Source of the DNA: Novosphingobium barchaimii LL02
Lineage (GTDB): Bacteria > Pseudomonadota > Alphaproteobacteria > Sphingomonadales > Sphingomonadaceae
Assembly (NCBI RefSeq): GCF_001046635.1
Contig: NZ_KQ130453.1
Span: 129,001 to 193,000 of the forward strand
Direction of reading: 5' to 3'
DNA length: 64,000 bases
Program-made: the position numbers and the translations under genes
In this document: piece after piece, positions 9,205 to 31,606 of the stretch
Layout of the letters: the number at the start of each line of letters is the position of its first letter
How positions within the stretch are numbered: the stretch's first letter is position 1
Notes under the pieces: model-generated
What the model saw: only the letters and a program-made list of their open reading frames with translations
What the model was told of the DNA's origin: nothing
The model's database searches: none

Positions 9205-9233
9205 TTGAAAAACAATCATGACTGTTTTCTAAT
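9205..9233 (+). promoter_or_regulatory. candidate sigma70 promoter of the Rieske tandem
   Basis: TTGAAA (9205-9210), 17-bp spacer, TCTAAT (9228-9233). The operator at 9209-9228 fills the whole spacer, which would make repressor binding and RNA polymerase mutually exclusive. Predicted by eye. Confidence 0.5.
9209..9228. promoter_or_regulatory. 20-bp regulon operator, copy 1
   Basis: AAAACAATCATGACTGTTTT, a near-perfect palindrome (AAAACA / TGTTTT arms around CATG). It is the best copy of a motif found at five promoter regions of the island and lies between the divergent VOC and Rieske genes. The cognate protein is probably the TetR regulator at 17867-18547. Confidence 0.7.
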
Positions 9234-9326
9234 GAATGTCCACCCCGGTGCGATTCGGCCGAAGAGAGCTGACCGCCAGGAGGATCGCCTTCGCCCCCCG
9301 GCGAGGCGGTGTCCCAGAGGAGAGGG

Positions 9327-10691
9327 ATGACCATGATGAAGCTCGATTTCGACGACTGGAACATCCACGTCGGCACGCCCCACCCCTTCAACGAGCGCGT
9401 GCGCCCGGCGATAGACAACGGCACCGGCCGCTCCGATCCGCGCCGCTATCATGACCGCGCCTTCATGCGCGAGGAGTGGGAGAAGGTCTTCGCGAGGAGC
9501 TGGCTGCTGGCTGGCCCGGCCTCCGACATTCCAGAGGAAGGCGACTTCTTCACGTTCGACATCGGCCCGGAAAGCTTCATCATCGTGCGCGGCGCGGACG
9601 ACGCGATCCATGCGCACTACAACGTCTGTCCGCACCGCGGCAGCCGGCTGGTGACGACGGACTTCGGATCGCTCGACCGTTTCACCTGCCCGTTCCATTC
9701 GTGGAAGTTCGACCTGGAAGGTCACAACGTCGCCGTTACCGACCCGGAGACGTTCCGCCCCGAAGTGCTGTGCCATGACCGCAATCTCACCTCGGTACGC
9801 TGCGAGGTGGCGGTGGGGCTGGTGTTCATTTCGATGGACGCCGAAATCGAGCCGGTGAAGCAGTGGCTGGCGCCGATCCTGCCGCAATTGGAGCTTTACG
9901 AGATCGACAAGATGTACGTCGTCCAGCACCGCCGGTCGGACTGGGGCGCGAACTGGAAGGGCGGGGTGGATGCCTTTGCCGAGATCTACCACCTCCACGC
10001 CGTCCACCCGCAGACCCAGTGTCTGATGGACGACCGCACCCAGATCGACCTGTGGCCCGGCGGCCTCTCGCGCCAGTTCGTGCCCTTCGCCCAGCCCGCC
10101 GCGCGCTTCCCGGATCAGGAGACGGTCAATCCCGGCATCCAGTCGATGCTGCGCGATGCCGGGATCGACCCGGCCAGTTACGAAGGCTCCGCCGCGCAGA
10201 CCCGTTCCGACGTGCAGAAGGCCAAGCGCCGCCGCTCCGACGAACTGGGGCTGGGGTACGAGAAGTTCAGCGACAGCCAGCTGAGCGACTCGGTGGTCTA
10301 TTCGCTGTTTCCCAACGGCCAGATCGGCTGCCATCCGGAGGCGATCTTCCTCCACCGGTTCATGCCGCACGCCAGCGACCCGAACCAGTTCACCTATGAT
10401 ACCTGCATCCTCTATCGCCACGTCGACGCGCCCGGTTACAGCGCGCCTGCCTGGATGGGGCTGGGCGATGAGACCGACATGAGCGGGGGCACCCGGCCCG
10501 AGATCGTCCACACCGGCCTTGGCGAACCGCCGGGCCTTGGCGAAGTGCTGGATCAGGATTCCGATCTGCTGCCGATCGTGCAGGCCGGCGCGCGGTCACG
10601 CGGCTTCCGGGGACCGCTGTGGAGCGAACAGGAAGGCCGCCTGCGCCATTTCCACGCCGAACTCGACCGCCGGATGGAGAGGAGCGCATGA
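9327..10691 (+). CDS. Rieske non-heme iron oxygenase, alpha subunit (tandem copy 1)
   Basis: Terminal oxygenase component that hydroxylates or demethylates an unknown substrate with O2. The 454-residue protein has the Rieske [2Fe-2S] ligands Cys101-x-His103 and Cys121-x2-His124 (CPHRG...CPFHSW, 17-residue gap). The catalytic iron region is NWKGGVDAFAEIYHLHAVH, with a likely third ligand in EVLDQDSDLLPIVQAG. I chose ATG 9327 next to AGAGGAG; a GTG at 9309 lacks a ribosome site. Its stop overlaps the next gene by 4 bp. The product is closely similar along its whole length to that next gene, so the pair arose by tandem duplication. No beta subunit, ferredoxin or reductase is encoded nearby. Confidence 0.93.
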   Translation: MTMMKLDFDDWNIHVGTPHPFNERVRPAIDNGTGRSDPRRYHDRAFMREEWEKVFARSWLLAGPASDIPEEGDFFTFDIGPESFIIVRGADDAIHAHYNVCPHRGSRLVTTDFGSLDRFTCPFHSWKFDLEGHNVAVTDPETFRPEVLCHDRNLTSVRCEVAVGLVFISMDAEIEPVKQWLAPILPQLELYEIDKMYVVQHRRSDWGANWKGGVDAFAEIYHLHAVHPQTQCLMDDRTQIDLWPGGLSRQFVPFAQPAARFPDQETVNPGIQSMLRDAGIDPASYEGSAAQTRSDVQKAKRRRSDELGLGYEKFSDSQLSDSVVYSLFPNGQIGCHPEAIFLHRFMPHASDPNQFTYDTCILYRHVDAPGYSAPAWMGLGDETDMSGGTRPEIVHTGLGEPPGLGEVLDQDSDLLPIVQAGARSRGFRGPLWSEQEGRLRHFHAELDRRMERSA

Positions 10692-12049
10692 ACTACGATC
10701 CGCGTAGCTGGGCCGTTCACAAAGGCTCCGAACATCCCTTCGACAAGCCCGCCGCTGCTATCGACAACGGGGCGGAGCGGCTCGATCCCAGCCGCTACAC
10801 CTCGCCCGAATTCTTCGCGCGCGAATGGGAAGAGGTGTTCGCCCGCACATGGCTGCTGGCGGCCCCTTCCAGCGACTTGGTCGAGGCGGGGGACTGGGTG
10901 AAGTTCGATATCGGCCCCGAAAGCTTCATCGTCGTGCGGCTGGAGAATGGCTCGGTCGCGGCGCATTACAATGTGTGCCCGCATCGCGGCAGCCGCCTAG
11001 TCACTGGCGAGATGGGCAGCCAGGACAGCTTCACCTGCCCGTTTCACTCGTGGCGCTTCGGCCTTGACGGGCACAACCAGAAGGTGACCGACCCCGAGAC
11101 TTTCCGCCCCGAAGTGTTGTGCCACGACATCAACCTCACCTCGGTCCGCGCCGAGGAGGCGGTGGGCCTCGTGTTCATCAACATGGACAGGGACGCACCG
11201 CCGCTGGCCGAGTTCCTTGGACCGATCCTGCCGATGCTGGAGACGTACCGCATGGACCGGATGCACGTGGTTCAGCACCGCCGCTCGGACTGGGCGGCGA
11301 ACTGGAAGGGCGGGATCGACGCTTTTTATGAAAGCTACCACCTGCACGCCATCCACCCGCAGACGATGGGCGTCATCGACGATCGCACTCATATCGACCT
11401 GTTCCCCGGCGGGCTCTCGCGCCAGTTCGTGCCGATGGCCCAGCCCAATTCGCACTTCCCGGATCAGGAGGCGATCAACCCGGGTATCGCCATGCTGCTG
11501 GCCGACGCGGGCATCGACCCGGACAGCTTCGCTGGCACCGCAATGGACAGCCGCGCCGCTGTAGCCCACGCCAAGCGCGAACGCGCCGCGCACATGGGGA
11601 TCGATTATTCGCACTTCTCCGATGCGCAGCTGACCGACAGTACGATCTTCGGCATCTTTCCGAACATGCAGTTGGGTTGCCACCCGGAAGCGGTGTTCCT
11701 GCACCGCTTCAAGCCCCACGCCAGCGATCCCGAGCAGTTCACCTACGAGACGACGATCCTCTACCGCCACGTCGATGTGCCCGGCTACGGCGCGCCTGGA
11801 TGGATGGGGCTGGGCGCCGACGTCGACGTGACCGGCGCGACCCGGCCCGAGGCAGTCCACACCGGCCTTGGCGAACCGCCCGGCATGGGCGAAGTGCTGG
11901 ACCAGGATTCAGACCTGTTGCCGATCGTGCAGGCAGGCGCAAGGTCGCGCGGTTTTCGCGGGCCTTTGTGGGGCGAACAGGAAGCGCGGCTGCGGCATTT
12001 CCACAAGGAACTTGACCGCTGGCTGGATGAGATCCCGCCCAGCGCCTGA
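10688..12049 (+). CDS. Rieske non-heme iron oxygenase, alpha subunit (tandem copy 2)
   Basis: Second member of the duplicated pair, 453 residues. Rieske ligands are Cys97/His99 and Cys117/His120, and the iron-site segment NWKGGIDAFYESYHLHAIH is intact. The proteins stay alike to the C-terminus (both end in GARSRGFRGPLW followed by EQE-type residues), but this copy differs around the active-site helix (FYES against FAEI), so the two may act on different intermediates or form mixed trimers. The ATG overlaps the upstream TGA (ATGA), implying translational coupling. A hairpin lies about 30 bp after the stop. Confidence 0.93.
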   Translation: MNYDPRSWAVHKGSEHPFDKPAAAIDNGAERLDPSRYTSPEFFAREWEEVFARTWLLAAPSSDLVEAGDWVKFDIGPESFIVVRLENGSVAAHYNVCPHRGSRLVTGEMGSQDSFTCPFHSWRFGLDGHNQKVTDPETFRPEVLCHDINLTSVRAEEAVGLVFINMDRDAPPLAEFLGPILPMLETYRMDRMHVVQHRRSDWAANWKGGIDAFYESYHLHAIHPQTMGVIDDRTHIDLFPGGLSRQFVPMAQPNSHFPDQEAINPGIAMLLADAGIDPDSFAGTAMDSRAAVAHAKRERAAHMGIDYSHFSDAQLTDSTIFGIFPNMQLGCHPEAVFLHRFKPHASDPEQFTYETTILYRHVDVPGYGAPGWMGLGADVDVTGATRPEAVHTGLGEPPGMGEVLDQDSDLLPIVQAGARSRGFRGPLWGEQEARLRHFHKELDRWLDEIPPSA

Positions 12050-12055
12050 TCCAGT

Positions 12056-12120
12056 AGTCATATTGAGCATAGTGAAGTAAACCCGGAGCAGTTGGCGCTG
12101 CTCCGGGTTGCTCCGTTATT
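12056..12120. repeat. palindromic repeat with strong hairpin after the Rieske pair
   Basis: Perfect 12-bp stem AACCCGGAGCAG (12080-12091) and CTGCTCCGGGTT (12098-12109) with a 6-nt loop. The left flank (GTCAT...CATAGTGAAGTAA) matches the layout of the 2955-3030 repeat, so it is probably the same repeat family. It can serve as a terminator although the T-tract is weak. Confidence 0.6.
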
Positions 12121-12333
12121 TCCGCTATGGCGAGGCGACCTTGCCGCCGCGATGTCAGCAATCGCGTGTGCGATCACCTGGCCATGTTTTCACCGCGCCG
12201 AAGCGATCGGCGCATCGTGCCCGCGATTGCCATGGGCGGCAGATTGAACGCCCCTCCAAGCTGTGTTCATGACCATGACGAAGCGCGCCGGAGCGTGCCG
12301 CGCCGACAGCGTTAAGCCTTGGGAAAGTCTGCC

Positions 12334-14517
12334 ATGAACTTCGACCTTACCGACGAGCAGGAAATGCTGCGCGACACTTTCGCGCGCTTTCTGGACGAGC
12401 ATTCCAGCACGGTGCGCGTGCGCAAGGCGCAGGAAACGGCGGGCTTCGATGCAGGCGTGTGGAGCGGCCTTGCCGACCTTGGCGCCTTTGCGATGCGGGT
12501 GCCGGAGGATGCGGGCGGCATGGATCTGGGCCTGTTCGATGCGGCGCTGCTGATGGAGGAGGCCGGGCGCACGCTTGTTTCCGGCCCGCTTGCCGAGGCG
12601 CTCGTTGCGGCGCGCCTGCTGGGCCAGCTCGGCGGGCAGGACGCATTGCTGGACCAGGCGATGGGCGGCCAGGCGGTGGTTACCATCGCCATGCACGATA
12701 TCGCCGCAAAACCGGTGCAGTGGATCGCGGGCGGCGCGGTCGCGCAGGCCGTGGTCGCCCGGCGCGGCGCCGAGGTTGTGCTGGTAACGGTATCGGGCAG
12801 CGCCGAGGCCAACCTTGCCACCACCCCCATCGCCGAAATCGACCTTGCTTCGGGCGAGACGGCGGTGCTCGGCTCGGGAGAGGAAGCGCTGGCGACTTTC
12901 GCCGCCGCCGTCGAGGAGTGGAAGCTCTACATCGCCGTCAGCCTTTCGGGCATCGGGCGGCAGGCGCTGAAGATGGCGGCCGAATATGCCGGTGAACGCA
13001 AGGCGTTCGGCCAGCTCATCGGTACGTTCCAGGGTATCTCCCACCCGCTTGCGGACCTGTTGTGCGATGTGGACGGCGCCAAGTTCCTCGCCTGGAAAGC
13101 CATCCGCGACATCTATGACGGTTCCGCCGAGGCGGGCCCGGCGATCTCGCTCGCCTACTGGTACGCCTGCGACGCGGCCGCGCGTGCGGTGGCGCAGGGA
13201 CTGCACACGTTCGGCGGCTTCGGCCTGTCGAGCGAGTATGACATCCACCTTTACAACCTGCGCGCCAAGGGCTTGCCGCTGGTCGCGGGCGATCCCGCGC
13301 TCATGCTGGAGGAAGCGGGGCGCCGGCTCTACGCGGGCGAAGTACCGGCGCTGCCGGCATCGGGCGAAGTCCCGCTCGACTTCGATCTGGGCGACGAGGC
13401 ACGGCAGGTCTGCGCGGAACTGGCCGAACTTTTCGCCACCAAGGTCACGCCGGAGATGAAGGCGAAGTTCCACTATTCCTGGGAGGGCTACGTTCCCGAA
13501 GTCCACAAGATGCTGGCCGATCACAAGCTGCTGTTCCCGGGACTGCCGGAGCATCTCGCCGGGCGCAGGATCAGCCCTTATGCGCGGATCGCGGCCATGG
13601 GCGAGCTGGAGCGGCAGGGCTACAACACGCCCGGCGCCAATGTCGCCGCGATGGTGGCGATGATGATCGACAAGTACGGCTCGGACGAACTCAAGGCCGA
13701 CGTTCTGCCCCGGATCACCGGCGGCGACGTGCTGTGTTCGCTGGGCTATTCCGAGCCTTCGTGCGGCTCCGACGTCTTTGCCGCGCAGTGCAAGGCGACG
13801 CAGTTGGAGGACGGCTCCTGGCGCATCGACGGCACCAAGATGTGGACCAGCGGCGCCAACCTTTCCAGCTATGTCCTGATGCTGACGCGCACCAATCCCG
13901 ACGTGCCCAAGCACAAGGGCCTGACGATGTTCATCGTGCCGCTCAAGACCGAAGGCGTCACCGTCCAGGCCGTCCACACCTTCCAGGACGAGCGTACCAA
14001 CATCACCTTCTATGACGGTGTGGTGATCCCCGACAGCTGGCGCCTGGGCGAGATCGACGGCGGCGTGAAGACCATGAGCGCGGCGCTGGAACTGGAGCAC
14101 GGCGGCGGCTTTTCCAAGGTCATGAAGGCGATGATCGAGGCGGCTGTGGAACTGACGGGCGAACTGGGCATCGCGGGCGAGGTCCGCACCCAGTGCCGCC
14201 TTGCGCGCAGCGTGGCGCACCTGTGGATCTCCGACATGCTGACTTACCGCGCGCAGTGGTCCAGCGTGGAAAAGAAGCCGAACCATGCCTTCGGGCCGAT
14301 GGCGAAGATGTATTCCTCCGAGAAATTCCTCAGCGACAGCCGCGATCTGCTGGACCTGACCGCGCCGGTCTCGCTGTCCAGGCGCGCGGGGCCTGCGGGT
14401 TTCCTCAACCAGTGCTATCGCCATGCGGCCGGCACGACGATTTACGGCGGCACCAGCGAAGTGCACCGCTCGATGGTCGCCGAACGTGGCCTTGGCCTGC
14501 CGCGCACCCGTGGTTGA
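12334..14517 (+). CDS. double-length (fused) acyl-CoA dehydrogenase
   Basis: FAD-dependent alpha,beta-dehydrogenation of an acyl-CoA. At about 727 residues it is twice the usual size and contains two dehydrogenase modules. The N-terminal one (from MNFDLTDEQEMLRDTFARFL to about residue 345) is degenerate in the substrate domain. The C-terminal one keeps LGYSEPSCGSDVFAAQCKAT, WRIDGTKMWTSGA and IYGGTSEVHRSMVAERGLGLPR. The usual catalytic Glu of the YEGT motif is Gly here (YGGT); a Glu in LELEHGG could take the isovaleryl-type position. Fused or heteromeric enzymes of this type act on steroid side-chain CoA esters in actinobacteria (family knowledge). ATG 12334 is preferred over an upstream TTG at 12319. 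An enoyl-CoA hydratase follows after 10 bp. Confidence 0.9.
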   Translation: MNFDLTDEQEMLRDTFARFLDEHSSTVRVRKAQETAGFDAGVWSGLADLGAFAMRVPEDAGGMDLGLFDAALLMEEAGRTLVSGPLAEALVAARLLGQLGGQDALLDQAMGGQAVVTIAMHDIAAKPVQWIAGGAVAQAVVARRGAEVVLVTVSGSAEANLATTPIAEIDLASGETAVLGSGEEALATFAAAVEEWKLYIAVSLSGIGRQALKMAAEYAGERKAFGQLIGTFQGISHPLADLLCDVDGAKFLAWKAIRDIYDGSAEAGPAISLAYWYACDAAARAVAQGLHTFGGFGLSSEYDIHLYNLRAKGLPLVAGDPALMLEEAGRRLYAGEVPALPASGEVPLDFDLGDEARQVCAELAELFATKVTPEMKAKFHYSWEGYVPEVHKMLADHKLLFPGLPEHLAGRRISPYARIAAMGELERQGYNTPGANVAAMVAMMIDKYGSDELKADVLPRITGGDVLCSLGYSEPSCGSDVFAAQCKATQLEDGSWRIDGTKMWTSGANLSSYVLMLTRTNPDVPKHKGLTMFIVPLKTEGVTVQAVHTFQDERTNITFYDGVVIPDSWRLGEIDGGVKTMSAALELEHGGGFSKVMKAMIEAAVELTGELGIAGEVRTQCRLARSVAHLWISDMLTYRAQWSSVEKKPNHAFGPMAKMYSSEKFLSDSRDLLDLTAPVSLSRRAGPAGFLNQCYRHAAGTTIYGGTSEVHRSMVAERGLGLPRTRG

Positions 14518-14527
14518 GGAGACGGCG

Positions 14528-15349
14528 ATGACCGAAGAAGCCCCGCACCTGCTGACAGAGGAAACCGGCGGAATCCTCATCGTCACGCTCAACCGTCCCG
14601 AAAAGCTCAACGCGATCAGCCGCGAGATGATGGACCTGTTGACGCAGGCGGTTCTGCGCCTGCGCGAAACGCCCGAACTCAAGGTCATGCTGATCCGTTC
14701 GGCGGGGCGCTATTTCAGTTCCGGCGCGGACCTGCGCGGCGGCAACCGGAATATCGCCTCAGAGGCGAACGTCGCGGCCAACTCCGCCAGCAAGGTGCGC
14801 GAGAACCACCGGCTGAACCTCAACAACATGCAGCAGTTGTGGGACGAGATGGAGCATGTCGAAAAGCCCATTGTCGCCGCACATCATGCGATGTGCGTTG
14901 GCGGCGGACTGGAGATGAGCCTCTCATGTGATTTCCGCCTTGCCGCGAAAAGCGCGGGCTATGCCTTCCCGGAGGGTCTGTTCGGCGTGCTGCCCGCCTC
15001 GGGCGGAGTTTCGCGCCTGACGCGCATCTGCGGGCCGCACTGGGCCCGCTGGCTCATCATGGCGAACAAGCCCGCGAACGCCGACATGGCCCTGACCATG
15101 GGCCTCGTCCATCAGGTCTTCGAGGACGAGACGTTCGAGGCGGAGGTCATGGATTTCTGCCGTCATCTGGCAAAGCAGAACGGCGAGCAGATGGGCGCGG
15201 CCAAGGTCGCCATCGAACTATGCGCGGACGTCGGCCGCGACTCCGCGCGTCATGTCGAGCGGATGGCCAACAGCGCCCTCATGCTGAACCCCGATTACAT
15301 CATGGGCATGGAGTCCTACCTCAAAGGCGTCGGCGGCAAGGCGAATTAG
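14528..15349 (+). CDS. enoyl-CoA hydratase/isomerase family protein
   Basis: Crotonase-fold protein of 273 residues, probably hydrating the enoyl-CoA made by the dehydrogenase just upstream (10-bp gap, same operon). The CoA-binding segment reads FSSGADLRGG. The two family glutamates are both present, in CVGGGLEMSLSCDF and AFPEGLFGVLPASGGVSRL, so it should be a competent hydratase. The ATG at 14528 follows GAGGAGACGGCG; reading further upstream overlaps the dehydrogenase in another frame and is not supported. Confidence 0.92.
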   Translation: MTEEAPHLLTEETGGILIVTLNRPEKLNAISREMMDLLTQAVLRLRETPELKVMLIRSAGRYFSSGADLRGGNRNIASEANVAANSASKVRENHRLNLNNMQQLWDEMEHVEKPIVAAHHAMCVGGGLEMSLSCDFRLAAKSAGYAFPEGLFGVLPASGGVSRLTRICGPHWARWLIMANKPANADMALTMGLVHQVFEDETFEAEVMDFCRHLAKQNGEQMGAAKVAIELCADVGRDSARHVERMANSALMLNPDYIMGMESYLKGVGGKAN

Positions 15350-15435
15350 CGCAGGCGAGCCGCCGCCATTGACATGCGCGGGCAAAGCGGACGAGGGGCG
15401 GTGTCACGCCAATCGCTTCTTCGGGTTTCGTTCGC

Positions 15436-15954: not shown

Positions 15955-16713
15955 TCAGAACGGCCGGATCGTCACACCGTTGTCGATCACCATCTCGGCG
16001 CCGGTGACGAAGCGGGATTCGTCGGAAGCGAGGTAGAGCACCAGTGCCGCCACGTCCTTGGGATGGCCGGCCGTTCCCGGCGGCAATACGCCTTCGGGAA
16101 TATCCCGCGTCTGTCCCGGTCGTCCTTCGGCGGTTTGTACCATCGGCGTCTCGATCGAGCCGGGATGCACCGAATTGCAGCGGATCTTGTAGCCCTTTTC
16201 CTGGCACATCACCGCGACCGACTTGGTCATCGCCCGCACCGCGCCCTTGGCAGCGGAATAGGCGAAGAAGATCGGATAGCCCAGCAGCGCGCCGGTCGAA
16301 CTCATGTTGACGATGGAGCCGCCGCTACCCTTGTTCATCAGCGGGATCGCGTGCTTGCAGCCCAGGAAAACGCCGTCGGTCATGATCGCGCTGACCCAGC
16401 GGAACTGTTCCAGACTGGTCTCCTCGACATCGGCGTTGAGGACGACGCCGGCATTGTTGACCAGCACGTCGAGCCGTCCGAAACGTGCGTCGATCTCCTG
16501 CATGACGGCGATCCATTGCGCCTCGTCGGCAACGTCGAGCGCCATCGCGACGGCGCCGTTGCCGATCCGGTCGGCCACGGCCAGCGCCGGTTCCAGCTTC
16601 ACGTCGGTGACAATGACGACCGCGCCTTCGCGGGCCAACGCCTCACAATCGGCCGCGCCCAGTCCCGAGCCGCCGCCGGTGACCAGCGCGACTTTGCCTT
16701 CAACCCGGCCCAT
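15955..16713 (-). CDS. short-chain dehydrogenase/reductase (SDR)
   Basis: Classical NAD(P)-dependent SDR of about 252 residues. It has the nucleotide-binding VALVTGGGSGLGAADCEAL at the N-terminus, LVNNAGVVLNADV in the middle and a canonical catalytic set (NMSSTG, then YSAAKGAVRAMTKSVAV). The C-terminal FVTGAEMVIDNGVTIRPF is typical. It resembles hydroxysteroid and alicyclic alcohol dehydrogenases, but the substrate is not determined. I chose the second of two adjacent ATGs (16713) because AGGAG is 6 nt upstream. It follows the atypical SDR at 16761-17681 on the same strand after a 47-bp gap and is probably cotranscribed with it. Confidence 0.9.
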   Translation of the reverse strand: MGRVEGKVALVTGGGSGLGAADCEALAREGAVVIVTDVKLEPALAVADRIGNGAVAMALDVADEAQWIAVMQEIDARFGRLDVLVNNAGVVLNADVEETSLEQFRWVSAIMTDGVFLGCKHAIPLMNKGSGGSIVNMSSTGALLGYPIFFAYSAAKGAVRAMTKSVAVMCQEKGYKIRCNSVHPGSIETPMVQTAEGRPGQTRDIPEGVLPPGTAGHPKDVAALVLYLASDESRFVTGAEMVIDNGVTIRPF

Positions 16714-16760
16714 CATTCTCTCCTGTTATTGTCGTTCTGATTGCTAGGGGGCGGCGGGCC

Positions 16761-17681: not shown

Positions 17682-17805
17682 ATGGCTTGTCCTTGAAATC
17701 GACGGCTAGATCGATCGCATGATCGGGGCGAATCGACGGCAAAGGGTTCGGCTGCGGCCGGATTTTTCCTCTATCGCGAAGCCACGCTAGCGCCGGCGAT
17801 TCAAA

Positions 17806-17825
17806 AAGACAAACAAGATTGTTTT
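17806..17825. promoter_or_regulatory. 20-bp regulon operator, copy 2
   Basis: AAGACAAACAAGATTGTTTT, matching copy 1 at 16 of 20 positions. It lies between the end of the tetR gene and the start of the atypical SDR, so it should control the SDR pair on the minus strand. Confidence 0.6.
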
Positions 17826-18547: not shown

Positions 18548-18708
18548 GTGATTCGCCTGAGAAATTGCTGTCGCCGGTGACTGCAATCCACCGGGCCATC
18601 CCGCCCGCTTACTCCCAAGCTGCTCCCGCGTGCAAGCGCACCGCCCGCGTAAAGCCCGGCCTTTCCTGCGGATAGCACCGCGTCGGCGTCCTCTCCGGCG
18701 CAGAAATT

Positions 18709-18728
18709 AAAACATGCATGACTGATTG
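18709..18728. promoter_or_regulatory. 20-bp regulon operator, copy 3
   Basis: AAAACATGCATGACTGATTG, matching copy 1 at 16 of 20 positions. It lies between the divergent tetR and acyl-CoA ligase genes. AT-rich promoter-like sequence (TGTAAT at 18727-18732) overlaps its right end. Confidence 0.6.
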
Positions 18729-18829
18729 TAATTTTCAATCGGCTTGGTAATCTCCTTTCAAACAGACTTCGCACGGCAACCGCAGCAGCGGCTGACCGCA
18801 AAGAGCACAGGACATTGGGAGAGCAGGCG

Positions 18830-20489: not shown

Positions 20490-20509
20490 AAGGCAGTCGT
20501 GATTGTCTT
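20490..20509. promoter_or_regulatory. 20-bp regulon operator, copy 4
   Basis: AAGGCAGTCGTGATTGTCTT. It matches the reverse complement of copy 1 at 16 of 20 positions and is itself palindromic, set inside flanking A and T runs. It lies about 105 bp upstream of the SDR-Rieske operon. Confidence 0.6.
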
Positions 20510-22743: not shown

Positions 22744-22830
22744 CAGGACAGCCCCTCTCCCCGCTCAGTCTCAGGATGAGCAGAGTGTTTTGGGAAGACG
22801 GGCAAAAGAACACGGACGGGAGAGCTAACC

Positions 22831-23805: not shown

Positions 23806-23815
23806 GGGACCGCAA

Positions 23816-24826
23816 ATGGCCATCATGAACATCCGCGAGGCGATCGTCTCGACATTGCACGCGGAAATGGAACGCGATTCCGACATCATCCTGCTTGGCG
23901 AAGATGTGGTCGGCGGCAACGGCACCGCCGGCGGCCCCGAGGCGATCGGCGGTATCTGGGGAACCAGCCCCGGCCTGTGGGAGAAATTCGGGCCGGAGCG
24001 CGTGATCGACACGCCGATCTCTGAAAGCGCCATCATCGGCGCAGCAGCCGGCGCGGCGCTGGCGGGCAAGCGGCCGGTGGCGGAATTGATGTTCGCGGAC
24101 TTCGTGGGCGTCAGCCTCGACCAGATCTGGAACCAGATGGCCAAGTTCCGCTACATGTTCGGCGGCAAGACCAAGTGCCCTGCCGTGGTGCGACTGGTCT
24201 ACGGCGCGGGCATGTCGACGGCGGCGCAGCACAGCCAGTCGGTTTATGCCATGCTTACCGCGATGCCCGGCCTCAAGGTGGTGCTACCCACCACCCCGGC
24301 CGACGCCAAGGGCCTGCTCACCGAAGCCCTGCGCGGCGATGACCCGGTCATGTATTTCGAACACAAGACGCTTTACGGCGTGAAGGGCGAAGTGCCCGAG
24401 GGCGATTACCGCCAGCGTTTCGGCGAAGCGCGTGTGGTGCGGGAGGGCGGCGACGTCACCGTTATCGCTTGCGGCCGGATGGTCAGCTTCTCGGAAAAAG
24501 CGGCGGACAAGCTGGCGGCGGATGGCATCGGCATGGATCTGCTGGACCTGCGCACCACCAGCCCGCTGGACGAGGATGCGATCCTGGAATCCGTCGAACA
24601 GACCGGGCGTTTGGTAGTGGTGGACGAAACTCCGCCGCGTTGCAGCCTCGCCGCCGATATCTGCGCGATGGTGGCCCAGCGGGCTTTCTCCAGCCTGAAG
24701 GCGCCGCCGCAGATGGTCACCGCGCCGCATAGCCCGATCCCCTTCGCCCGCAATCTTGAGCGCGCCTGGGTGCCCTCGCCGCAGAAGGTCGAGGAAGCGG
24801 TCCGCCGCGTCCTCGCCTTTCGTTGA
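23816..24826 (+). CDS. 2-oxo-acid/acetoin dehydrogenase E1 component, beta subunit
   Basis: Partner of the E1 alpha product, 336 residues. Family features include IILLGEDVVGGNGTAGG near the N-terminus, RVIDTPISESAIIGAAAGAA, and AELMFADFVGVSLDQIWNQM. The C-terminal transketolase domain carries VTVIACGRMVSFSEKAADKL and VVVDETPPRCSLAADI. The gap to E1 alpha is 10 bp and to E2 is 14 bp, so all are cotranscribed. The ATG at 23816 fits the family start. Confidence 0.93.
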   Translation: MAIMNIREAIVSTLHAEMERDSDIILLGEDVVGGNGTAGGPEAIGGIWGTSPGLWEKFGPERVIDTPISESAIIGAAAGAALAGKRPVAELMFADFVGVSLDQIWNQMAKFRYMFGGKTKCPAVVRLVYGAGMSTAAQHSQSVYAMLTAMPGLKVVLPTTPADAKGLLTEALRGDDPVMYFEHKTLYGVKGEVPEGDYRQRFGEARVVREGGDVTVIACGRMVSFSEKAADKLAADGIGMDLLDLRTTSPLDEDAILESVEQTGRLVVVDETPPRCSLAADICAMVAQRAFSSLKAPPQMVTAPHSPIPFARNLERAWVPSPQKVEEAVRRVLAFR

Positions 24827-24840
24827 GGGAGGAACGGACG

Positions 24841-26271
24841 ATGGCGAAACTCACGCCTTTCACGATGCCCAAGTGGGGTATCGAAATGGCCGAAGGCACG
24901 ATCGCCGACTGGATGGTGGCCGAAAACGCTCCGTTCGAACGCGGCGCCGTGCTCACGCTTATCGAGACGGACAAGATCACCAACGAGGTCGAGGCCGAAA
25001 AGGACGGCCGCCTCGTGCGCATCATGGCCGAGGCCGGGCAGACCTATCCGGTGGGCGCGCTACTGGGTGTGCTGAGCGATGGCGGCGAGGCCAGCGCGGC
25101 TGAGATCGACGCGGTGATCGCGGCCTTTCGTCCCTCAGACGCCGGTTTCGGGCCTGAGGGTGAGGATGACGCGCCAGTGACTGCTCCTGCGGCTGCACCT
25201 GTCGCTACCGCCCCGCCACCGGTTCCCGAAGGTATCGCCATCAGTCCGGTCGCGCTGGCCGAGGCACAGCGTCTCGGCGTTGACCTTGCGACGGTCACCG
25301 GCACGGGCAGGGGAGGGCGCATTTTCGCGCAGGATGTGCATCAGGCCGGGCGCCCAGAAAGTCAGCCTGAGCTTGCGGGCGTCTTTGCGATGACGGCGCA
25401 TAGCGGGGTGCTTTCCACCCCGGTTGCGCGTCGCATTGCCGCGCTCAACGGGCTGGACCTCGCGAAGGTCAAGGGCAGCGGTCACCGGGGCAAGGTGCGC
25501 CGCGATGACGTGCTGGCGGTGGTCAGCCAAGCCGCGCCGCAACCAGCTCCAGTCGCCGCAGCGCCGGCCCCGACGCCTGCGCCAGCCCCCGCCCCGCCTG
25601 TCGCCGGCAGCGTCGATATCGCGCCGATGAGCTCAATGCGCCGCACGATCGCGCGCCGTCTGACCGAATCCAAGCAGCAGATCCCGCATTTCTATGTCCG
25701 CCGCCGGGTGCGAGCGGATCGGCTGCTGGCGCTGCGGGCGTCGCTCGGCCCTGACAAGCCCAGCGTCAACGACTTCATCGTCAAGGCCTGCGCCCTGGCG
25801 TTGATGGAAGTGCCGGCGGTCAATATCCAGGTTCACGGCAACGACATCCACCGCTTCGCCTCGGCCGACGTGGCCGTGGCCGTGGCGACCGAGAAGGGCC
25901 TCGTCACCCCTATCGTGTTCGGTGCCGACGACCTGTCGGTGGCGCAGATCGGCTCGGCTATGAAAGCGCTGGCCCAGCGCGCCCGCAGCGGCAAGCTGAA
26001 GCCGGAGGAATTTTCGGGCGGCAGTTTCTCCCTCTCCAACCTCGGCGGGTTCGGGGTGGAGCAGTTCGACGCCATCATCAACCCGCCGCAGGGCGCGATC
26101 CTGGCGGTCGGCACGGCGCGGCCCGAACCCATCGACGACGACGGCGCGATCCGCATCGTGCCGGTACTCCACCTCTCCCTCTCGTGCGACCACCGCGCGA
26201 TCGACGGGGCCGACGGCGGCCGTTTCATGGCCGCGCTCGCCAGCCTCATCGAACAACCCCATCTGCTCTGA
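24841..26271 (+). CDS. dihydrolipoamide acyltransferase (E2) with two E3-binding-like domains
   Basis: Core acyltransferase of the complex, 476 residues. An N-terminal lipoyl domain carries the modified Lys45 in ETDKITNEVEA. Two peripheral-subunit-binding-like domains follow in tandem: ISPVALAEAQRLGVDL with GTGRGGRIFAQDV, then STPVARRIAALNGLDL with GSGHRGKVRRDDV, separated and followed by Ala/Pro linkers. The C-terminal catalytic domain ends with DHRAIDG (His451, Asp455). Most E2 proteins have one such binding domain. No E3 (lipoamide dehydrogenase) gene is nearby, so the complex must borrow one. The next gene starts 12 bp later. Confidence 0.93.
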   Translation: MAKLTPFTMPKWGIEMAEGTIADWMVAENAPFERGAVLTLIETDKITNEVEAEKDGRLVRIMAEAGQTYPVGALLGVLSDGGEASAAEIDAVIAAFRPSDAGFGPEGEDDAPVTAPAAAPVATAPPPVPEGIAISPVALAEAQRLGVDLATVTGTGRGGRIFAQDVHQAGRPESQPELAGVFAMTAHSGVLSTPVARRIAALNGLDLAKVKGSGHRGKVRRDDVLAVVSQAAPQPAPVAAAPAPTPAPAPAPPVAGSVDIAPMSSMRRTIARRLTESKQQIPHFYVRRRVRADRLLALRASLGPDKPSVNDFIVKACALALMEVPAVNIQVHGNDIHRFASADVAVAVATEKGLVTPIVFGADDLSVAQIGSAMKALAQRARSGKLKPEEFSGGSFSLSNLGGFGVEQFDAIINPPQGAILAVGTARPEPIDDDGAIRIVPVLHLSLSCDHRAIDGADGGRFMAALASLIEQPHLL

Positions 26272-26283
26272 AAGACCCAAGCG

Positions 26284-27447
26284 ATGAACTTCAAGCTGAC
26301 CGAAGACCAGCTCCAGCTCCAGGAAGCCGCCCGCACGTTCGCCCGTGCCGAACTGCCCGCCGTCGCCGCCGAACTGGAGCGTGACAACAAGCCGCCTAGC
26401 CGCGCGCTGCTGAAGCGTTATGCAGAGATGGGCTTCCTGGGCATCAACGTGTCGAGCGAGCTGGGCGGCCTTGGCATGGGCAATATCGAGGCGCTGATCG
26501 TGCTGGAGGAATTCGGCAAGATTTCGTCGGCGGTCGGCTTCCCGATCTTCGAAAGCTCGGTCGGCCCGGTGCGCGCGATCGAGTATTTCGCCTCGGATAC
26601 GCTCAAGAAGCGCGTCGTTCCTGCGGTCTGCGCCGGTGAGATGGTGATTGCCGTGTCGATGTCCGAACCGGATGCGGGCAGCGCGCTGACAGACCTCAAG
26701 ACCAAAGGCGTGGTCAAGGGCGACAAGCTGGTCATCAACGGCACCAAAAGGTGGTGCTCGGGCGGCGGGCATTCCGACGCTTACGTGGTCTATTGCCGCC
26801 TTTCGGACGAACCGGGCGCCAAGGGCATCGGTGCGGTGCTGGTGGAAAAGGACGCGCCGGGCATCTCGTTCGGGCCGAACGAACAGCTCATGGGCTTTCG
26901 CGGCATACCTTCGTCAGACATCAATTTCGATGACTGCGAAGTGCCGCTGGACAACGTGATCGTCCATGCCGGCGGCGGCTTCAAGAAGTTGATGGAGGCC
27001 TTCGACCTCGAACGCTGCGGCAATGCCACGATGTCGCTCGCACAGGCTTCTGGCGCGCTGGAGGATGTCAGCGCCTATGTTCAGGAGCGCAAGCAGTTCG
27101 GCAAGCCCATCGCCGAATTTCAGGCGGTGCAGATCAAGTTGGCGGAAATGCAGATGAAGGTGGAAGCCGCCCGCCTGCTGATCTGGCGCGCGGCTTCTCT
27201 GGCCGAAGATGGCCTGCCTTCGGTGCTGCACAGCTCCACTGGCAAGTGCTTTGCCAACACCATCGCCCGCGAAGTGACCGGAGATGCGATGCAGCTGATG
27301 GGCGCCTACGGCTATTCCAAGGAATTCCCGATGGAACGCCGTCTGCGCGACAGTTGGGGCTGGGGCATCGCGGGGGGCGCGATCGACATCCAGAAGGTCA
27401 ACATTGCCGGCGCCATGCTGGGGCGGCGGTTCGACCAGCGGCGTTGA
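26284..27447 (+). CDS. acyl-CoA dehydrogenase
   Basis: FAD-dependent acyl-CoA dehydrogenase of normal single length (387 residues). It starts MNFKLTEDQLQLQEAARTFA and carries SMSEPDAGSALTDLKT, INGTKRWCSGGG and QERKQFGKPIAEFQAVQ. The usual C-terminal catalytic Glu is missing (GGAIDIQ in place of YEGTxxIQ). A Glu in FDLERCGNAT matches the isovaleryl-CoA dehydrogenase catalytic position, so activity toward a branched or bulky acyl-CoA is plausible. It is the last gene of the E1-E2 operon, 12 bp after E2. Confidence 0.92.
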   Translation: MNFKLTEDQLQLQEAARTFARAELPAVAAELERDNKPPSRALLKRYAEMGFLGINVSSELGGLGMGNIEALIVLEEFGKISSAVGFPIFESSVGPVRAIEYFASDTLKKRVVPAVCAGEMVIAVSMSEPDAGSALTDLKTKGVVKGDKLVINGTKRWCSGGGHSDAYVVYCRLSDEPGAKGIGAVLVEKDAPGISFGPNEQLMGFRGIPSSDINFDDCEVPLDNVIVHAGGGFKKLMEAFDLERCGNATMSLAQASGALEDVSAYVQERKQFGKPIAEFQAVQIKLAEMQMKVEAARLLIWRAASLAEDGLPSVLHSSTGKCFANTIAREVTGDAMQLMGAYGYSKEFPMERRLRDSWGWGIAGGAIDIQKVNIAGAMLGRRFDQRR

Positions 27448-27464
27448 TTATCGCATGAACTTTC

Positions 27465-27498: not shown

Positions 27499-27562
27499 AG
27501 AATCAAGGGGCTGATATTCGCGGCTCATGCAGCCATGAGGGGGTGGTTCGGCACCAGCGCTT

Positions 27563-28060
27563 TTAGCGCGCGGTGCCGGCCATCCGCTCCCTCGCGCCGC
27601 GCGTATAGACCAAATTGATACTGGTGAACGTCACGGCCTCGGTGCCGTCTTCCAGGACAACGGCATAGCGCGTCATAGCCGTGCCGCGATCGGTGCGGCT
27701 TTTCGAGGGCTCCAGGCTAACGATCTCGCTCGTCACGTGGATAGTATCGCCGGCACGGATAGCCCGCTTGAGGCGTAGTTCGTCCCAGCCCACGCCGCAG
27801 ACCCAGTCGATGTCCCAGTTGATCTCGTGGTCCATCTGGCGCCACAGGGCGAGCACGTGAATCCCGCTCGCCACCACCTCGCCGAAGACTGACTGTGCGG
27901 CGCTTTCGGGATCGGTGTGGAACCACTGCGGATCGTACTTGCGCGCAAACTCCAGCATCTCTTCCTGCGACACCGTTCGCGGAGAAGAGCGGCGGAACTC
28001 GCCCAGTTCCAGGTCTTCGAAAGTGCGATGCGGCGCGCGCGGCACGAAGGCTTCGCTCAC
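27563..28060 (-). CDS. MaoC-family hydratase
   Basis: Hot-dog-fold (R)-specific enoyl-CoA hydratase-type protein of 165 residues. The hydratase signature is visible as KYDPQWFHTDPESAAQSVFGEVVASGIH, with catalytic Asp and His in place. The reaction is likely hydration of an enoyl-CoA, or dehydration in reverse. The start codon overlaps the tesB-like stop by 4 bp. It is the last gene of the operon Rieske-SDR-VOC-TesB-MaoC read from 31525 down to 27563. Confidence 0.9.
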   Translation of the reverse strand: MSEAFVPRAPHRTFEDLELGEFRRSSPRTVSQEEMLEFARKYDPQWFHTDPESAAQSVFGEVVASGIHVLALWRQMDHEINWDIDWVCGVGWDELRLKRAIRAGDTIHVTSEIVSLEPSKSRTDRGTAMTRYAVVLEDGTEAVTFTSINLVYTRGARERMAGTAR

Positions 28061-28977
28061 AGTTTGCCTTTCCGTTCTTCGTCAAGCATCCGCGCCAGAC
28101 CCTGCTGGCTGACGGTGGCGACCAGCGTGCCGTCGCGGCGGAACACGTTGCCGCGGCCCAGCGCCATGGCGTCGCTCGCCGCCGGGCTGTCCATCGCGTA
28201 AAGCAGCCATTCGTCCACGCGAAATTCGTCATGGAACCAGACCGCGTGGTCCAGACTGCTCGATTGCAGGAAGTCGTTCGCCCAGCCGATCCCCAATGGA
28301 CCCAGCGCCGTATGGAAGATGTGCAGGTCCGAAGCGTAGGTGAGCAGGCGCTGGTGCACGTCCAGCGGCCCGTCGACCATGCCGACGGCGCGGAACCAGA
28401 AGCTGCGGCTCGCGGGGCGGACCTCGTGCTCATCGAAGGGGAAGAATTCCAGTGGGCGCCAGTCGATCTGCTGGCGGCGGCGCCAGAACGGGCGGTGCCG
28501 CTCCGGCAGACGGTCGCCATAGGCGGCGACCAGGTCAGCAAGACTGGTCAGGCTCTCGGGCGGGGGTACGTCCGGCATCGCCACGCAGTGCCTGGCGGAC
28601 GGTTCAGGCTTCTTGAAAGAGGCCATCATGTTGAGGATCGGCGCGCCATTCTGCGTCATGCGCACCATGCGATTGGCGAACGTGCGACCGTCGCTTTCGC
28701 GGGTGACTGCGAAATCCACGGGCCGGTCGGTAAGGCCCGGTTGGAGGAAATAGGCGTGGAGGCTGTGCGCGACCTTGTCCGCCGGCACCGTCAGGCGCGC
28801 AGCGGCCAGGCACTGCGAGGCCACCATGCCGCCGTAAAGGCGCAGCAGCCCGCTTGGCACCGGCTGAACCCGGTAATGATCGGGTGCGATGTCCTCGAAT
28901 TCATAGCCGAGACGGCGCTCGACTTCAGGGTCGTCGGGATAAGGGTTCGATTCAGGCAAGGCGTGCATCCATCGCAT
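28057..28977 (-). CDS. tesB: acyl-CoA thioesterase II
   Basis: Double hot-dog thioesterase that hydrolyses acyl-CoA to free acid and CoA, 306 residues, a usual TesB length. The C-terminal half keeps the family block SLDHAVWFHDEFRVDEWLLY followed by AMDSPAAS, RGNVFRRDG and VATVSQQGLAR, which contains the Asp/Thr-Ser/Gln active-site residues. The N-terminal half has YRVQPVPSGLLRLYGGMVASQ. I chose ATG 28977, 4 bp after the VOC stop; the longer open frame overlaps the VOC gene and adds non-family residues. It may release CoA from dead-end intermediates. Confidence 0.93.
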   Translation of the reverse strand: MRWMHALPESNPYPDDPEVERRLGYEFEDIAPDHYRVQPVPSGLLRLYGGMVASQCLAAARLTVPADKVAHSLHAYFLQPGLTDRPVDFAVTRESDGRTFANRMVRMTQNGAPILNMMASFKKPEPSARHCVAMPDVPPPESLTSLADLVAAYGDRLPERHRPFWRRRQQIDWRPLEFFPFDEHEVRPASRSFWFRAVGMVDGPLDVHQRLLTYASDLHIFHTALGPLGIGWANDFLQSSSLDHAVWFHDEFRVDEWLLYAMDSPAASDAMALGRGNVFRRDGTLVATVSQQGLARMLDEERKGKL

Positions 28978-28981
28978 CGGC

Positions 28982-29455
28982 CTAGCAGGCCACGCACTGC
29001 TTCTCGAACGCAAAAGCGCTGTCGGGATCGACGATCTGCAACAATTCCACCATGTTGCCGTCGCAGTCGCGGCCATACGTCGCGCGCGTCGCCGCCGATC
29101 CGCCGGGCGCGCAGTTGAATTCCATGCCCAGCGCGCTCAACCGCTCATATTCGGCGAAAACGTCGTCGCAGTAGAGGCATAGATGCGTGATGCCCCGGTC
29201 GCACATGCGCGGGTGGACGGTCTGGGGGTCGTTGCTGGCATATTCAAACACCTCGATATGCAGGTTGCCCAGCCGGATCATGGCATAGCGCGCGGCGCTG
29301 CCGTTCAGGCCAACCATGGTATCAATTCGTTCGTTTCCGGCCTGCCAGCCGCCTTCCTTACCGGCGCTTTCGAAGCCAAACCAGCGCTGGTAGTGGTCGA
29401 CGAAACGGTCGAGGTCAGGCGTCGAGATCGCCACGTGATGGACGCCCCGGATCAT
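28982..29455 (-). CDS. VOC (glyoxalase-fold) family protein
   Basis: Glyoxalase/dioxygenase-fold protein of 157 residues. It starts IRGVHHVAISTPDLDRFVDHYQ, with His of the first metal strand, followed by LHIEVFEYAS, GITHLCLYCDDVFAEYERL and RDCDGNMVELLQIV, giving the His/Glu/His/Glu arrangement of a metal site. The reaction is unknown. It overlaps the SDR gene by 4 bp and ends 5 bp before the thioesterase start, so it is embedded in the Rieske-SDR-VOC-TesB-MaoC operon. Confidence 0.87.
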   Translation of the reverse strand: MIRGVHHVAISTPDLDRFVDHYQRWFGFESAGKEGGWQAGNERIDTMVGLNGSAARYAMIRLGNLHIEVFEYASNDPQTVHPRMCDRGITHLCLYCDDVFAEYERLSALGMEFNCAPGGSAATRATYGRDCDGNMVELLQIVDPDSAFAFEKQCVAC

Positions 29456-30267
29456 GCCGGGGAGGCCGCTGCAGGTGTCGCCTGCCGCGCGGCCTTCACC
29501 GCACCAACGATCTCGGCATTGGTGGGGTTACGGCGCAGGGTCAGCCCGCCGTTGACCTGCAGCACCTGCCCGCTCATGAAGCAGGCATCGCTGGCCACCC
29601 AGGACACGGCTTCGGCAATGTCCTCGCTGGTGCCCACCCGGCCTAGCGGATATTCCTTGGCGAAAGTGTCCATGATCGCGGTGTTCTTTGATGCCTTCTC
29701 GGTCATCGGGGTGACGGTGAAGCCCGGCGCGACCGAATTGGCGCGGATGCCCCGATGCCCGAATTCATTGGCGACGCAGCGGATCACATGGTCGGCGCCG
29801 GCCTTGGTGCCCATGTAGGCGGCGTGGTCCTCCAGCATGATCGAGGCGGTGGCGGATGAGATCTGGATCAATGATCCGCCATCGCGCATCACCCGCAGCA
29901 TCGCCTGATAAAACAGGATCGCGCCGGTGAACTGCAGCGCCGTCATCTGCTCGATCTCGGCCTTGGTGGTTTCGAGGAAGGGTTTCAGCAGCCCCCAGCC
30001 GGTGGCGTTGACCGCGATATCCACGCCGCCGTAAGCACCGCGCACCGTCTCACCCAGCCGTGCCAGATCCGCCTCGCTGGTGAGGTCGCAGCCGGTGACG
30101 GCCAGCCCGCCCAGTTCGGCTGCGAGCCGCTCCAGCTCATCAGCCTTGCGCCCGGCGACGATCACCGTCGCACCGTCTGCTGCCAGCCTGCGCGCGATCA
30201 CTTGCGCCATGTTGCCCCGGTTGGCCGCGCCGACGACGACGGCGACCTTTCCTGCGAGGTCCGCCAT
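29452..30267 (-). CDS. short-chain dehydrogenase/reductase (SDR)
   Basis: SDR of 271 residues. The nucleotide motif VAVVVGAANRGNMAQVIARRL is somewhat unusual (GAANRGN in place of TGxxxGxG). VNATGWGLLKPF replaces the common NNAG segment, while the catalytic block ISSATASIML with YMGTKAGADHVIRC is intact. The C-terminal MSGQVLQVNGGLTLRR is typical. The ATG follows GGGAGAGAGCAGAT. It is second in the operon after the fourth Rieske gene (31-bp gap) and overlaps the VOC gene, so it probably acts on a hydroxylated or CoA-bound intermediate. Confidence 0.88.
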   Translation of the reverse strand: MADLAGKVAVVVGAANRGNMAQVIARRLAADGATVIVAGRKADELERLAAELGGLAVTGCDLTSEADLARLGETVRGAYGGVDIAVNATGWGLLKPFLETTKAEIEQMTALQFTGAILFYQAMLRVMRDGGSLIQISSATASIMLEDHAAYMGTKAGADHVIRCVANEFGHRGIRANSVAPGFTVTPMTEKASKNTAIMDTFAKEYPLGRVGTSEDIAEAVSWVASDACFMSGQVLQVNGGLTLRRNPTNAEIVGAVKAARQATPAAASPA

Positions 30268-30298
30268 ATCTGCTCTCTCCCGTGTCTAGTTTCGTCGG

Positions 30299-31525
30299 TC
30301 AGTCCCGCTGGACCCAGTCACCCAGCACCTGCTCGACGCGGGCCTTTTCCGGCACGATATTGAGGCCGATGCGGCGGTCCAGTTCCTCGTGCCAGTGGTA
30401 GATGCGCCGTTCCTGATAGTTCAGCGGCATTCCCTTGAAGCCGGGGCTTTCCAGCGATTCCTGGATTTGCGGGGCGTATTGCAGGTCTTCGTAAAGGATA
30501 CGCTCCCAGTTGTTGAGGCGCGTTTCCCATAGCGGATGCGGGTTTTCGGCATCGTGATCGGGGGCGATCCAGGTCGATACCACGCGGGTGCGCTTTGGCC
30601 CCAGCGGCCAGAACTGCAGCAGTGGCACGCCGCTGGGGGCAGGCGGCATCACGAAGTTCGGATAAATCTGGTAGCTGACGTTGTTCTTGGCCGGAAATTC
30701 GGTGATCGAGGGGATTACCGGCATTCCCACCGTGCCCGGATCGACCCAGTCGGGACGGCGGTTGGGCGTCGCCATGCGGCTATGGCCGTTGGGCCAGAGC
30801 GTGACGATCATGGAACGGTGGTCGAGGAAGCGGTCCACCGTGTTCACGTGGATCGACTTGATGTGGTAGACCTCAAGGAACGCGTCGAGCAGAATCTTGA
30901 CGTTGCAGTCCACCTCATAACTACGGCTGTCGACTAGGCGCAGGTTTTCCAGATCGTACTGTTCCAGCTGCGCTGCCATCGGGCCGATGTGCTCCATCAA
31001 CGGCTGCGCTTCCGGGTCCTGGTTGACGAAAATCAGCGAGCCGAGCAGTTCGCAGCGCACTTCCTTCAGCGAGCGGCACGACAAGTCGAGGTCCACGAAA
31101 TCGCGCTTGTCGCGCACGGCGGTGAGCTTGCCTTCCAGCGTGTAGCTCCAGCCGTGATAGCCGCACACGAAGCCGCGCCCTTCGCCAGAATCCTCGGCCA
31201 CCAAGGGCGCGCCGCGGTGCTGGCAGGTGTTGAAGAAGGCCTTGACCTCGCCCTTCAGCGTGCGCGTGACGATGATCGGCGCGCCGGGATTACGGGTGAG
31301 GAACCAGGTGCCAGGCCGTGGAATCTGGTCGACATGGCCGGCATAGAGCCAGGCCTTGTCCCACATCATCTCCTTTTCCAGCGCCAGGAATTCCTTGTCG
31401 GTATAGCGGCTGCCGGGGATATCGGGGAACTTTGGAAAGCCTTCCGGCGGACCCTTGCGATCGCGCTCATAATCCATGCGCGCGAAATCGTTTTCGGGTT
31501 TTTGATCCGCAACCAGATCGAGCAT
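30299..31525 (-). CDS. Rieske non-heme iron oxygenase, alpha subunit (fourth)
   Basis: Terminal oxygenase of 408 residues, shorter than the other three and of a different subfamily. Rieske ligands are Cys101/His103 and Cys121/His124 (CQHRGAPLV...CGYHGWSY). The catalytic region is NVKILLDAFLEVYHIKSIH, with LYEDLQYAPQIQESL as the third-ligand segment. The ATG follows GGGAGAG. It heads the five-gene operon down to MaoC and has one or two operator copies upstream. Members of this branch include ring hydroxylases and C-N or O-demethylases, so the reaction cannot be assigned. Confidence 0.92.
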   Translation of the reverse strand: MLDLVADQKPENDFARMDYERDRKGPPEGFPKFPDIPGSRYTDKEFLALEKEMMWDKAWLYAGHVDQIPRPGTWFLTRNPGAPIIVTRTLKGEVKAFFNTCQHRGAPLVAEDSGEGRGFVCGYHGWSYTLEGKLTAVRDKRDFVDLDLSCRSLKEVRCELLGSLIFVNQDPEAQPLMEHIGPMAAQLEQYDLENLRLVDSRSYEVDCNVKILLDAFLEVYHIKSIHVNTVDRFLDHRSMIVTLWPNGHSRMATPNRRPDWVDPGTVGMPVIPSITEFPAKNNVSYQIYPNFVMPPAPSGVPLLQFWPLGPKRTRVVSTWIAPDHDAENPHPLWETRLNNWERILYEDLQYAPQIQESLESPGFKGMPLNYQERRIYHWHEELDRRIGLNIVPEKARVEQVLGDWVQRD

Positions 31526-31586
31526 CGGCCTTCTCTCCCATGAGGCCCGCGCTGTAAGGCACTGGACCAGTCCGCGGCAAAATCAA

Positions 31587-31606
31587 AAAACATACAAGAA
31601 TGTTTG
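31587..31606. promoter_or_regulatory. 20-bp regulon operator, copy 5
   Basis: AAAACATACAAGAATGTTTG, matching copy 1 at 15 of 20 positions, with AAAACA and TGTTTG arms. It lies about 60 bp upstream of the fourth Rieske gene (minus strand). Confidence 0.6.

Follow-up and report, generated by a model that had tools for sequence, protein, structure and literature searches.

Which regulator governs the multi-Rieske gene cluster of Novosphingobium barchaimii LL02, and through which DNA sites? The cluster lies in a 64,000-nucleotide stretch of contig NZ_KQ130453.1, the whole of which is referred to here as the window, with coordinates counted from its first letter. An initial annotation had noted five copies of a 20-bp palindrome in this DNA and proposed a TetR-type regulon in which one repressor controls a 22-kb catabolic island. 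Our analysis points to the palindromes as operators of the TetR-family regulator encoded at 17867-18547 (minus strand), which would repress the units of the cluster, and we place the probability of this reading at about 85%. The idea of a TetR-type regulon gained from conservation, from co-occurrence across genomes, from a palindrome upstream of the TetR gene itself and from promoter geometry, whereas its restriction to one repressor is unproven and, in relatives, the regulon reaches further than the island.

The five palindromes were verified at 9209-9228, 17806-17825, 18709-18728, 20490-20509 and 31587-31606, all in 5′ regions of island genes as first proposed. Compared with AAAACAATCATGACTGTTTT, they match at 20/18, 16/16, 16/15, 14/16 and 15/15 of 20 positions (as given/complement, in coordinate order), and the best counts of 20, 16, 16, 16 and 15 bear out the range of 15-20 originally reported for the motif or its complement. 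A whole-window scan with this 20-mer yielded a sixth copy that the first account lacked, AAAACAGTCAACAGTGATTG at 31649-31668, matching at 14/15 of 20 positions. All six copies are intergenic, each 5′ of a cluster gene, and are listed without a strand. Operator 1, which is AAAACAATCATGACTGTTTT itself (36.7 bits by the matrix described below), occupies the divergent region between a VOC gene and Rieske-A; operator 2 (32.0 bits) lies 5′ of the minus-strand genes for the short-chain dehydrogenases/reductases (SDRs) SDR-2 and SDR-1; operator 3 (28.2 bits) lies between tetR (minus) and an AMP-binding ligase gene (plus); operator 4 (24.2 bits) is 5′ of the SDR-3/Rieske-C/E1-E2/acyl-CoA dehydrogenase genes; and operator 5 (30.6 bits) is 5′ of the minus-strand Rieske-D genes. 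The weak operator 6 (14.4 bits) is found 62 bp from operator 5 and overlaps the predicted Rieske-D −35 element.

The palindrome matrix, covering the 20-bp core, took the five window sites as its seed, and its weights were refined on the relatives' loci L001-L027 only; 118 distinct sites were used for training, and the matrix was later rebuilt likewise in three rounds. The six operators are the top six places in the window, and the next-best place in 64 kb scores 2.9 bits. In 100 sequences of 64 kb simulated with a Markov-1 model, top scores went no higher than 16.5 bits (median of 7.3); none reached 24 bits and two reached 14.4 bits. The five original sites are therefore far beyond chance, while operator 6 taken alone is borderline and not significant, so that the case for it comes from its position and its recurrence in close relatives. 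Its 62-bp spacing from operator 5 is kept in L001, L002, L087 and L088; no counterpart is present among the sites listed for L004 or L093. As a separate observation, a register shifted by 4 bp also scores at many sites (CAnnCAnnCATGnnTG; for example, window 18705-18728 and L006:9786-9809), giving two overlapping palindromes at which paired dimers side by side are conceivable.

Comparison with relatives singled out the same 20 bp. The nearest DNA in the plasmid collection belongs to Novosphingobium resinovorum pSA1 (85%), Novosphingobium PP1Y Mpl (82%), Croceicoccus marinus (79%) and Sphingobium RAC03 (78%), and the closest genome by TetR is Novosphingobium sp. 18050 (G006, 92%); the set of relatives assembled by TetR comprised 25 loci, with the remote L028 and L029 excluded. 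Over 38 rows from five orthologous promoters, the core was 90% identical to the window versus 39% in the ungapped flanks, a count that omits the closest relative (L014/L088/L089), lets the register move by as much as 4 bp, which slightly favours the core, and understates flank identity by leaving the flanks ungapped. Core identity by site was 94% for operator 1 (nine relatives), 97% for operator 2 (eight), 83% for operator 3 (nine), 86% for operator 4 (seven) and 90% for operator 5 (five), and the palindrome was the strongest conserved block of the promoter alignments.

The palindrome also travels with the regulator. Among 298 genomes of the family, 29 match the pattern at one mismatch or fewer, and a reversed-pattern control gave 0 in every row. 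Querying with the TetR at E 1e-15 retrieved 55 of the 298 genomes, with up to nine candidates scored per genome, and a wide gap separates the 22 that have at least 56% identity (best E of 9e-65 or better) from the rest (2e-27 or worse). Two or more sites were found in 21 of the 22 TetR genomes versus 0 of the 276 others, eight of which have one (Fisher p 2.5e-31). In the exception, G183, the TetR gene runs from base 186 of its contig and a two-mismatch site at 124-143 comes just before it. As for the eight single-site genomes, three (G046, G095 and G105) encode a 30-34% TetR relative 3-5 kb away with the helix SRGAMLHHY; in four (G022, G110, G179 and G275) the surrounding 6-8 kb or so contains no TetR homologue, and their sites are taken as chance; and the last, G079, also has a reversed-pattern match at two mismatches. 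With AARACADDCATGHHTGTYTT at up to two mismatches, 13 of 14 TetR-holding genomes or records gave 5 to 11 sites and a Sphingopyxis genome with a TetR of about 55% gave one, with 0/14 for the reversed pattern; the RAC03 plasmid, searched as the plasmid only, combines one TetR of this kind with nine sites.

A home site, meaning a palindrome of at least 15 bits within 700 bp upstream of a TetR gene, accompanies 54 of 60 distinct TetR rows at 50% identity or more and 1 of 10 rows below 50%. In clusters of N. aromaticivorans pNL2 (L102) and N. capsulatum (L103), homologous E1/E2, thiolase and acyl-CoA dehydrogenase genes stand beside a LuxR-type regulator instead of a TetR, and no palindrome was found there even at 5 bits. 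The link between palindrome and TetR is strong but indirect. A related cluster on the N. resinovorum HR1a plasmid (L105) encodes a 30% TetR with the helix NISRGAMLHHY; its four weak matches of 7-12 bits (L105:8540, 13824, 23905 and 26988), all intergenic, are perhaps a diverged form of the operator.

Four predicted promoters, each filled or overlapped by the palindrome across the −35/−10 region, have a geometry that would fit steric repression. For Rieske-A (9205-9233, plus), the 17-bp spacer between −35 TTGAAA (9205-9210) and −10 TCTAAT (9228-9233) lies inside operator 1; TTG at that offset recurs in 9/10 orthologues and, by eye, −10 TNTAAT in 6/10, and no TAnnnT stands at a fixed offset in these orthologous promoters. 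For SDR-2 (17784-17812, minus), −35 TTGTCT falls in the operator arm, followed by 17 bp and −10 TAGCGT, and for the ligase (18726-18753, plus), −35 TTGTAA overlaps operator 3, followed by 16 bp and −10 TAATCT; TTG and TAnnnT are fixed in 9/9 rows in both cases. For Rieske-D (31630-31659, minus), −35 TTGACT lies inside operator 6, followed by 18 bp and −10 TAGGAT, with TTG in 5/6 and TAnnnT in 4/6 rows. The more diverged rows L003 (Rieske-A), L004 (SDR-2) and L016 and L026 (ligase) are omitted from these counts.

Proteins of the TetR family bind their operator as a dimer and let go upon ligand binding. A dimer of the 17867-18547 product would bind AAAACAnnCATGnnTGTTTT in the core promoter and block RNA polymerase, sitting in the −35/−10 spacer at Rieske-A and over the −35 element at SDR-2, the ligase and Rieske-D, and the TetR would probably repress its own gene via operator 3. 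An inducer, which the neighbouring ligase leads us to guess may be a pathway CoA thioester or an early intermediate, would free the TetR and so switch on together the four Rieske oxygenases, the SDRs, the CoA ligase, the acyl-CoA dehydrogenases, E1/E2 and the thioesterase. In relatives, TonB uptake, a pyrroloquinoline quinone (PQQ) dehydrogenase and an operon for CoA-transferase and thiolase would come under the same operator, which may also serve a paralogous TetR whose recognition helix is almost identical.

The candidate repressor fits the TetR family in two respects. A TetR_N helix-turn-helix is present at its N-terminus (Pfam PF00440, E 2.3e-12, 46.9 bits against a cut-off of 24) with the recognition helix GLSRGAMMHHF, and palindromes occur at its own and neighbouring promoters, as in TetR-family repressors. 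The top-scoring solved protein was TtgR (8v90, E 5.7e-12), with similarity over query residues 36-142 only. The TtgR operator, in the portion of PMC4538802 available, is printed as a sequence holding CAAACAACCATGAATGTAAG, within which stands the exact ACAnnCATGnnTGT of the core of this palindrome, and it scores 10.8 bits by the matrix. With 38 places tried, the per-place p of this score is 1.8e-6 at window composition and 1.3e-4 at the operator's own composition. The AcrR operator, centred on TGTG instead of CATG, scores 16.6 bits with the same matrix, and the window TetR scores 37.7 bits with the NCBIfam AcrR equivalog model, whose cut-off is 271. TtgR/AcrR-type repressors govern efflux pumps according to the available text of PMC6018408 and PMC3128119; the window TetR, in contrast, has no adjacent resistance-nodulation-division (RND) efflux operon and sits in a multi-unit catabolic cluster with SDR, ligase and Rieske genes as neighbours. 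The arrangement is very likely a further example of a well-known type, namely a local TetR regulon with a TtgR-like operator core.

Several points weigh against assigning the palindromes to this one TetR. The palindrome tracks the pathway just as it tracks the TetR, the cut at 56% was chosen after the gap had been seen, and no more than nine candidates were scored in each genome. The five sites of the window itself served as seed for the matrix, the TetR rows are not independent species, and L001-L027 both trained the matrix and feed the count of home sites. A home site is absent in 6 of the 60 TetRs (L007, L027, L038, L090, L091 and L095, of which L038 is cut at an edge), and the 20.6-kb locus of the 55% Sphingopyxis TetR (L027) holds no site of 5 bits. 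The printed operator of PmeR scores 1.4 bits only. No −35/−10 pair at a fixed offset was seen for operators 4 (SDR-3) and 5 or on the tetR strand of operator 3, and for this reason the proposed autorepression of tetR is argued from position alone. Finally, the protein that actually binds some sites could be a paralogous TetR.

This last point is the substance of the alternative that survives best, to which we give even odds: a small set of paralogous TetRs, of types A and B, would have the palindrome as their common operator, with control of the pathway joint or divided, a view that refines the proposed TetR regulon more than it opposes it. A-type TetRs co-reside with one or two paralogues at 52-63% identity in 11 of the 15 records searched, and the palindrome lies within 700 bp upstream of 11 of 14 co-resident paralogue rows. 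A single residue separates the A-type recognition helix, GLSRGAMMHHF, from the B-type one, GLSRGAMLHHF, in nearly all rows; three A-type helices have V for the last M and one ends HHY. In the tree, A forms a clade at 100/98; support for the grouping of the B rows is 92/92 and falls short of the tool's 95/80 mark. G006, the nearest relative, has two further paralogous TetRs, and B-type TetRs are found beside CoA-transferase/thiolase genes and elsewhere. Against a shared operator, the window shows one TetR of this kind only, its own gene being the sole homologue retrieved there with the 17867-18547 query (tblastn, E up to 1); just 7 of the 22 TetR genomes have another copy at 56% identity or above; the co-resident paralogues L090, L091 and L095 lack a home site; and one TetR can suffice, several sites being present also where a genome encodes just one TetR, whether A or B. 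The single repressor of the initial annotation is not established, since most records searched hold paralogous TetRs with a near-identical helix and mostly the same palindrome. A rule separating A from B operators by position 3/18 (A.T or G.C) was tried and dropped, as G3/C18 is carried, by eye, by B promoters in several genomes and by A promoters in another group.

The island was likewise too narrow a boundary, since in relatives the palindrome is also found ahead of genes for TonB receptors and PQQ dehydrogenases, of an operon encoding a CoA-transferase and a thiolase, and of a small gene that lies between tsf and pyrH. Among the sites listed, most cluster in one stretch of some 25-52 kb per genome; in G001 (N. 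resinovorum) and G006 (Novosphingobium sp. 18050), several lie on other contigs. Scatter outside such promoters had been named as a sign against the regulon, and in the relatives nine outlying promoters were examined (L079, L080, L081, L082, L083, two in L084, L085 and L086), a count that omits G010:C8:1541 and outliers in, for example, G230, G268 and G299. Outlying sites do occur, and behind these nine are TonB receptors in five (L079, L080, both in L084, and L086), a TetR paralogue in one (L082) and the tsf-pyrH gene in three. Two of the five TonB promoters (L079, L084) also serve a divergent TetR gene of a different type.

The tsf-pyrH gene (L081:3321-3860, L083:4488-5024 and L085:4272-4808, from three Novosphingobium genomes) has 73-83% identity to the L081 copy and is possibly an off-cluster member of the regulon at a housekeeping locus. 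Only the L081 copy has a carboxymuconolactone-decarboxylase match, weak and below the Pfam cut-off, and the other two have none, so a role in the pathway is unproven. Beside TonB genes, a TetR of a third type, divergent from the receptor gene, was observed (L079:4744, L084:10380 and L092:10909) with the helix VAQRTLYRLF or VAQRTIYRLF; by eye, the promoters there have both this palindrome and a nearby inverted repeat, AAATGA-N10-TCATTT. A different helix together with a second inverted repeat would fit helix-specific recognition and suggests two TetR inputs at one uptake promoter.

A regulator of a different kind, inherited with the pathway, could in principle bind the palindrome, as palindromes of this length serve many regulator families and co-occurrence alone cannot tell regulator from pathway. 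We consider this improbable, since no other regulator family was matched among the 30 window proteins scanned with Pfam (4382 to 39523), a palindrome lies upstream of the TetR gene itself in most rows and the TtgR operator has the same core. The copies might instead be left over from a small repeat or from a mobile palindromic element, or be RNA hairpins, with no regulator binding them. This would explain several near-identical short palindromes in one region and is nevertheless very hard to sustain, as every promoter retains its own copy through divergence while the flanks are lost, no genome lacking the TetR has two copies, and the place relative to −35/−10 is fixed in several promoters.

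The genes behind the operators were assigned by the same Pfam scan, which elsewhere in the window took in two upstream genes only. Operator 1 is flanked by a VOC/glyoxalase-type gene (8607-9149, minus) and by the genes for Rieske-A, Rieske-B, a 732-aa frame with two acyl-CoA dehydrogenase regions and an enoyl-CoA hydratase (9333-15349, plus), which are probably one operon. Two SDR genes (15955-17681, minus) follow operator 2, and the AMP-binding acyl-CoA ligase gene occupies 18830-20467 (plus). Behind operator 4 lie SDR-3, Rieske-C, E1 alpha, E1 beta, E2 and an acyl-CoA dehydrogenase (20615-27447, plus), and behind operators 5 and 6 lie Rieske-D, SDR-5, VOC-B, a thioesterase and MaoC (27563-31525, minus), each set a presumed operon. 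The cluster comprises four Rieske oxygenase alpha proteins, SDRs, VOC proteins, a ligase, a thioesterase and MaoC, with E1 alpha, E1 beta and E2 as 2-oxoacid dehydrogenase components. The 732-aa frame (12319-14517) is a single chain and possibly a fused heterodimer.

Related regulators have been described. EdcR of Caenibius tardaugens is a TetR-family regulator of estradiol catabolism with palindromes at several cluster promoters, its own included in weaker form (PMC8700777); the window TetR resembles it as a sphingomonad repressor candidate with palindromes across catabolic-cluster promoters, but the EdcR operator TnnCnnTACnAnTnGTAnnGnnA differs from the window sites in a comparison made by eye, with no scan for it. 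KstR and KstR2, the TetR repressors of cholesterol catabolism, act on catabolic genes and respond to CoA thioesters (PMC8700777); they are actinobacterial, unlike the sphingomonad host here, and the likeness, taken from description only, is TetR control of catabolic genes. PheR of Sphingobium SHPJ-2 represses a sphingomonad oxygenase cluster and is tied to uptake, yet it belongs to the IclR family and has the motif GCAACG (PMC13273656). Bile-salt and estradiol clusters were considered as the identity of the pathway and rejected, with no support in the portions of literature examined and a different operator for EdcR. A search of the literature, exact 14-mers included and with most subscription journals outside it, found no description of the operator or regulon and none of a pathway for this cluster; the available parts of PMC8700777, PMC13273656, PMC8399759, PMC12175502, PMC4538802, PMC3128119 and PMC6018408 give no account of this operator.

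More broadly, and with slightly less than even confidence, we can envisage a lineage-wide sphingomonad regulon in which A and B TetRs share one operator over catabolic operons, TonB/PQQ-dehydrogenase genes and the tsf-pyrH gene, acting as two sensors that may each respond to a different intermediate of a multi-Rieske pathway not yet described. If the proposed regulon is real, one signal could switch on a whole multi-oxygenase pathway. The operator matrix helps to delimit this sphingomonad pathway, off-cluster parts included, and the analysis names a protein, plus its paralogue, through which the inducer, and hence the substrate, could be found. The A/B pair would also make a natural case in which to see how two repressors arising by duplication share one operator set or split it between them.

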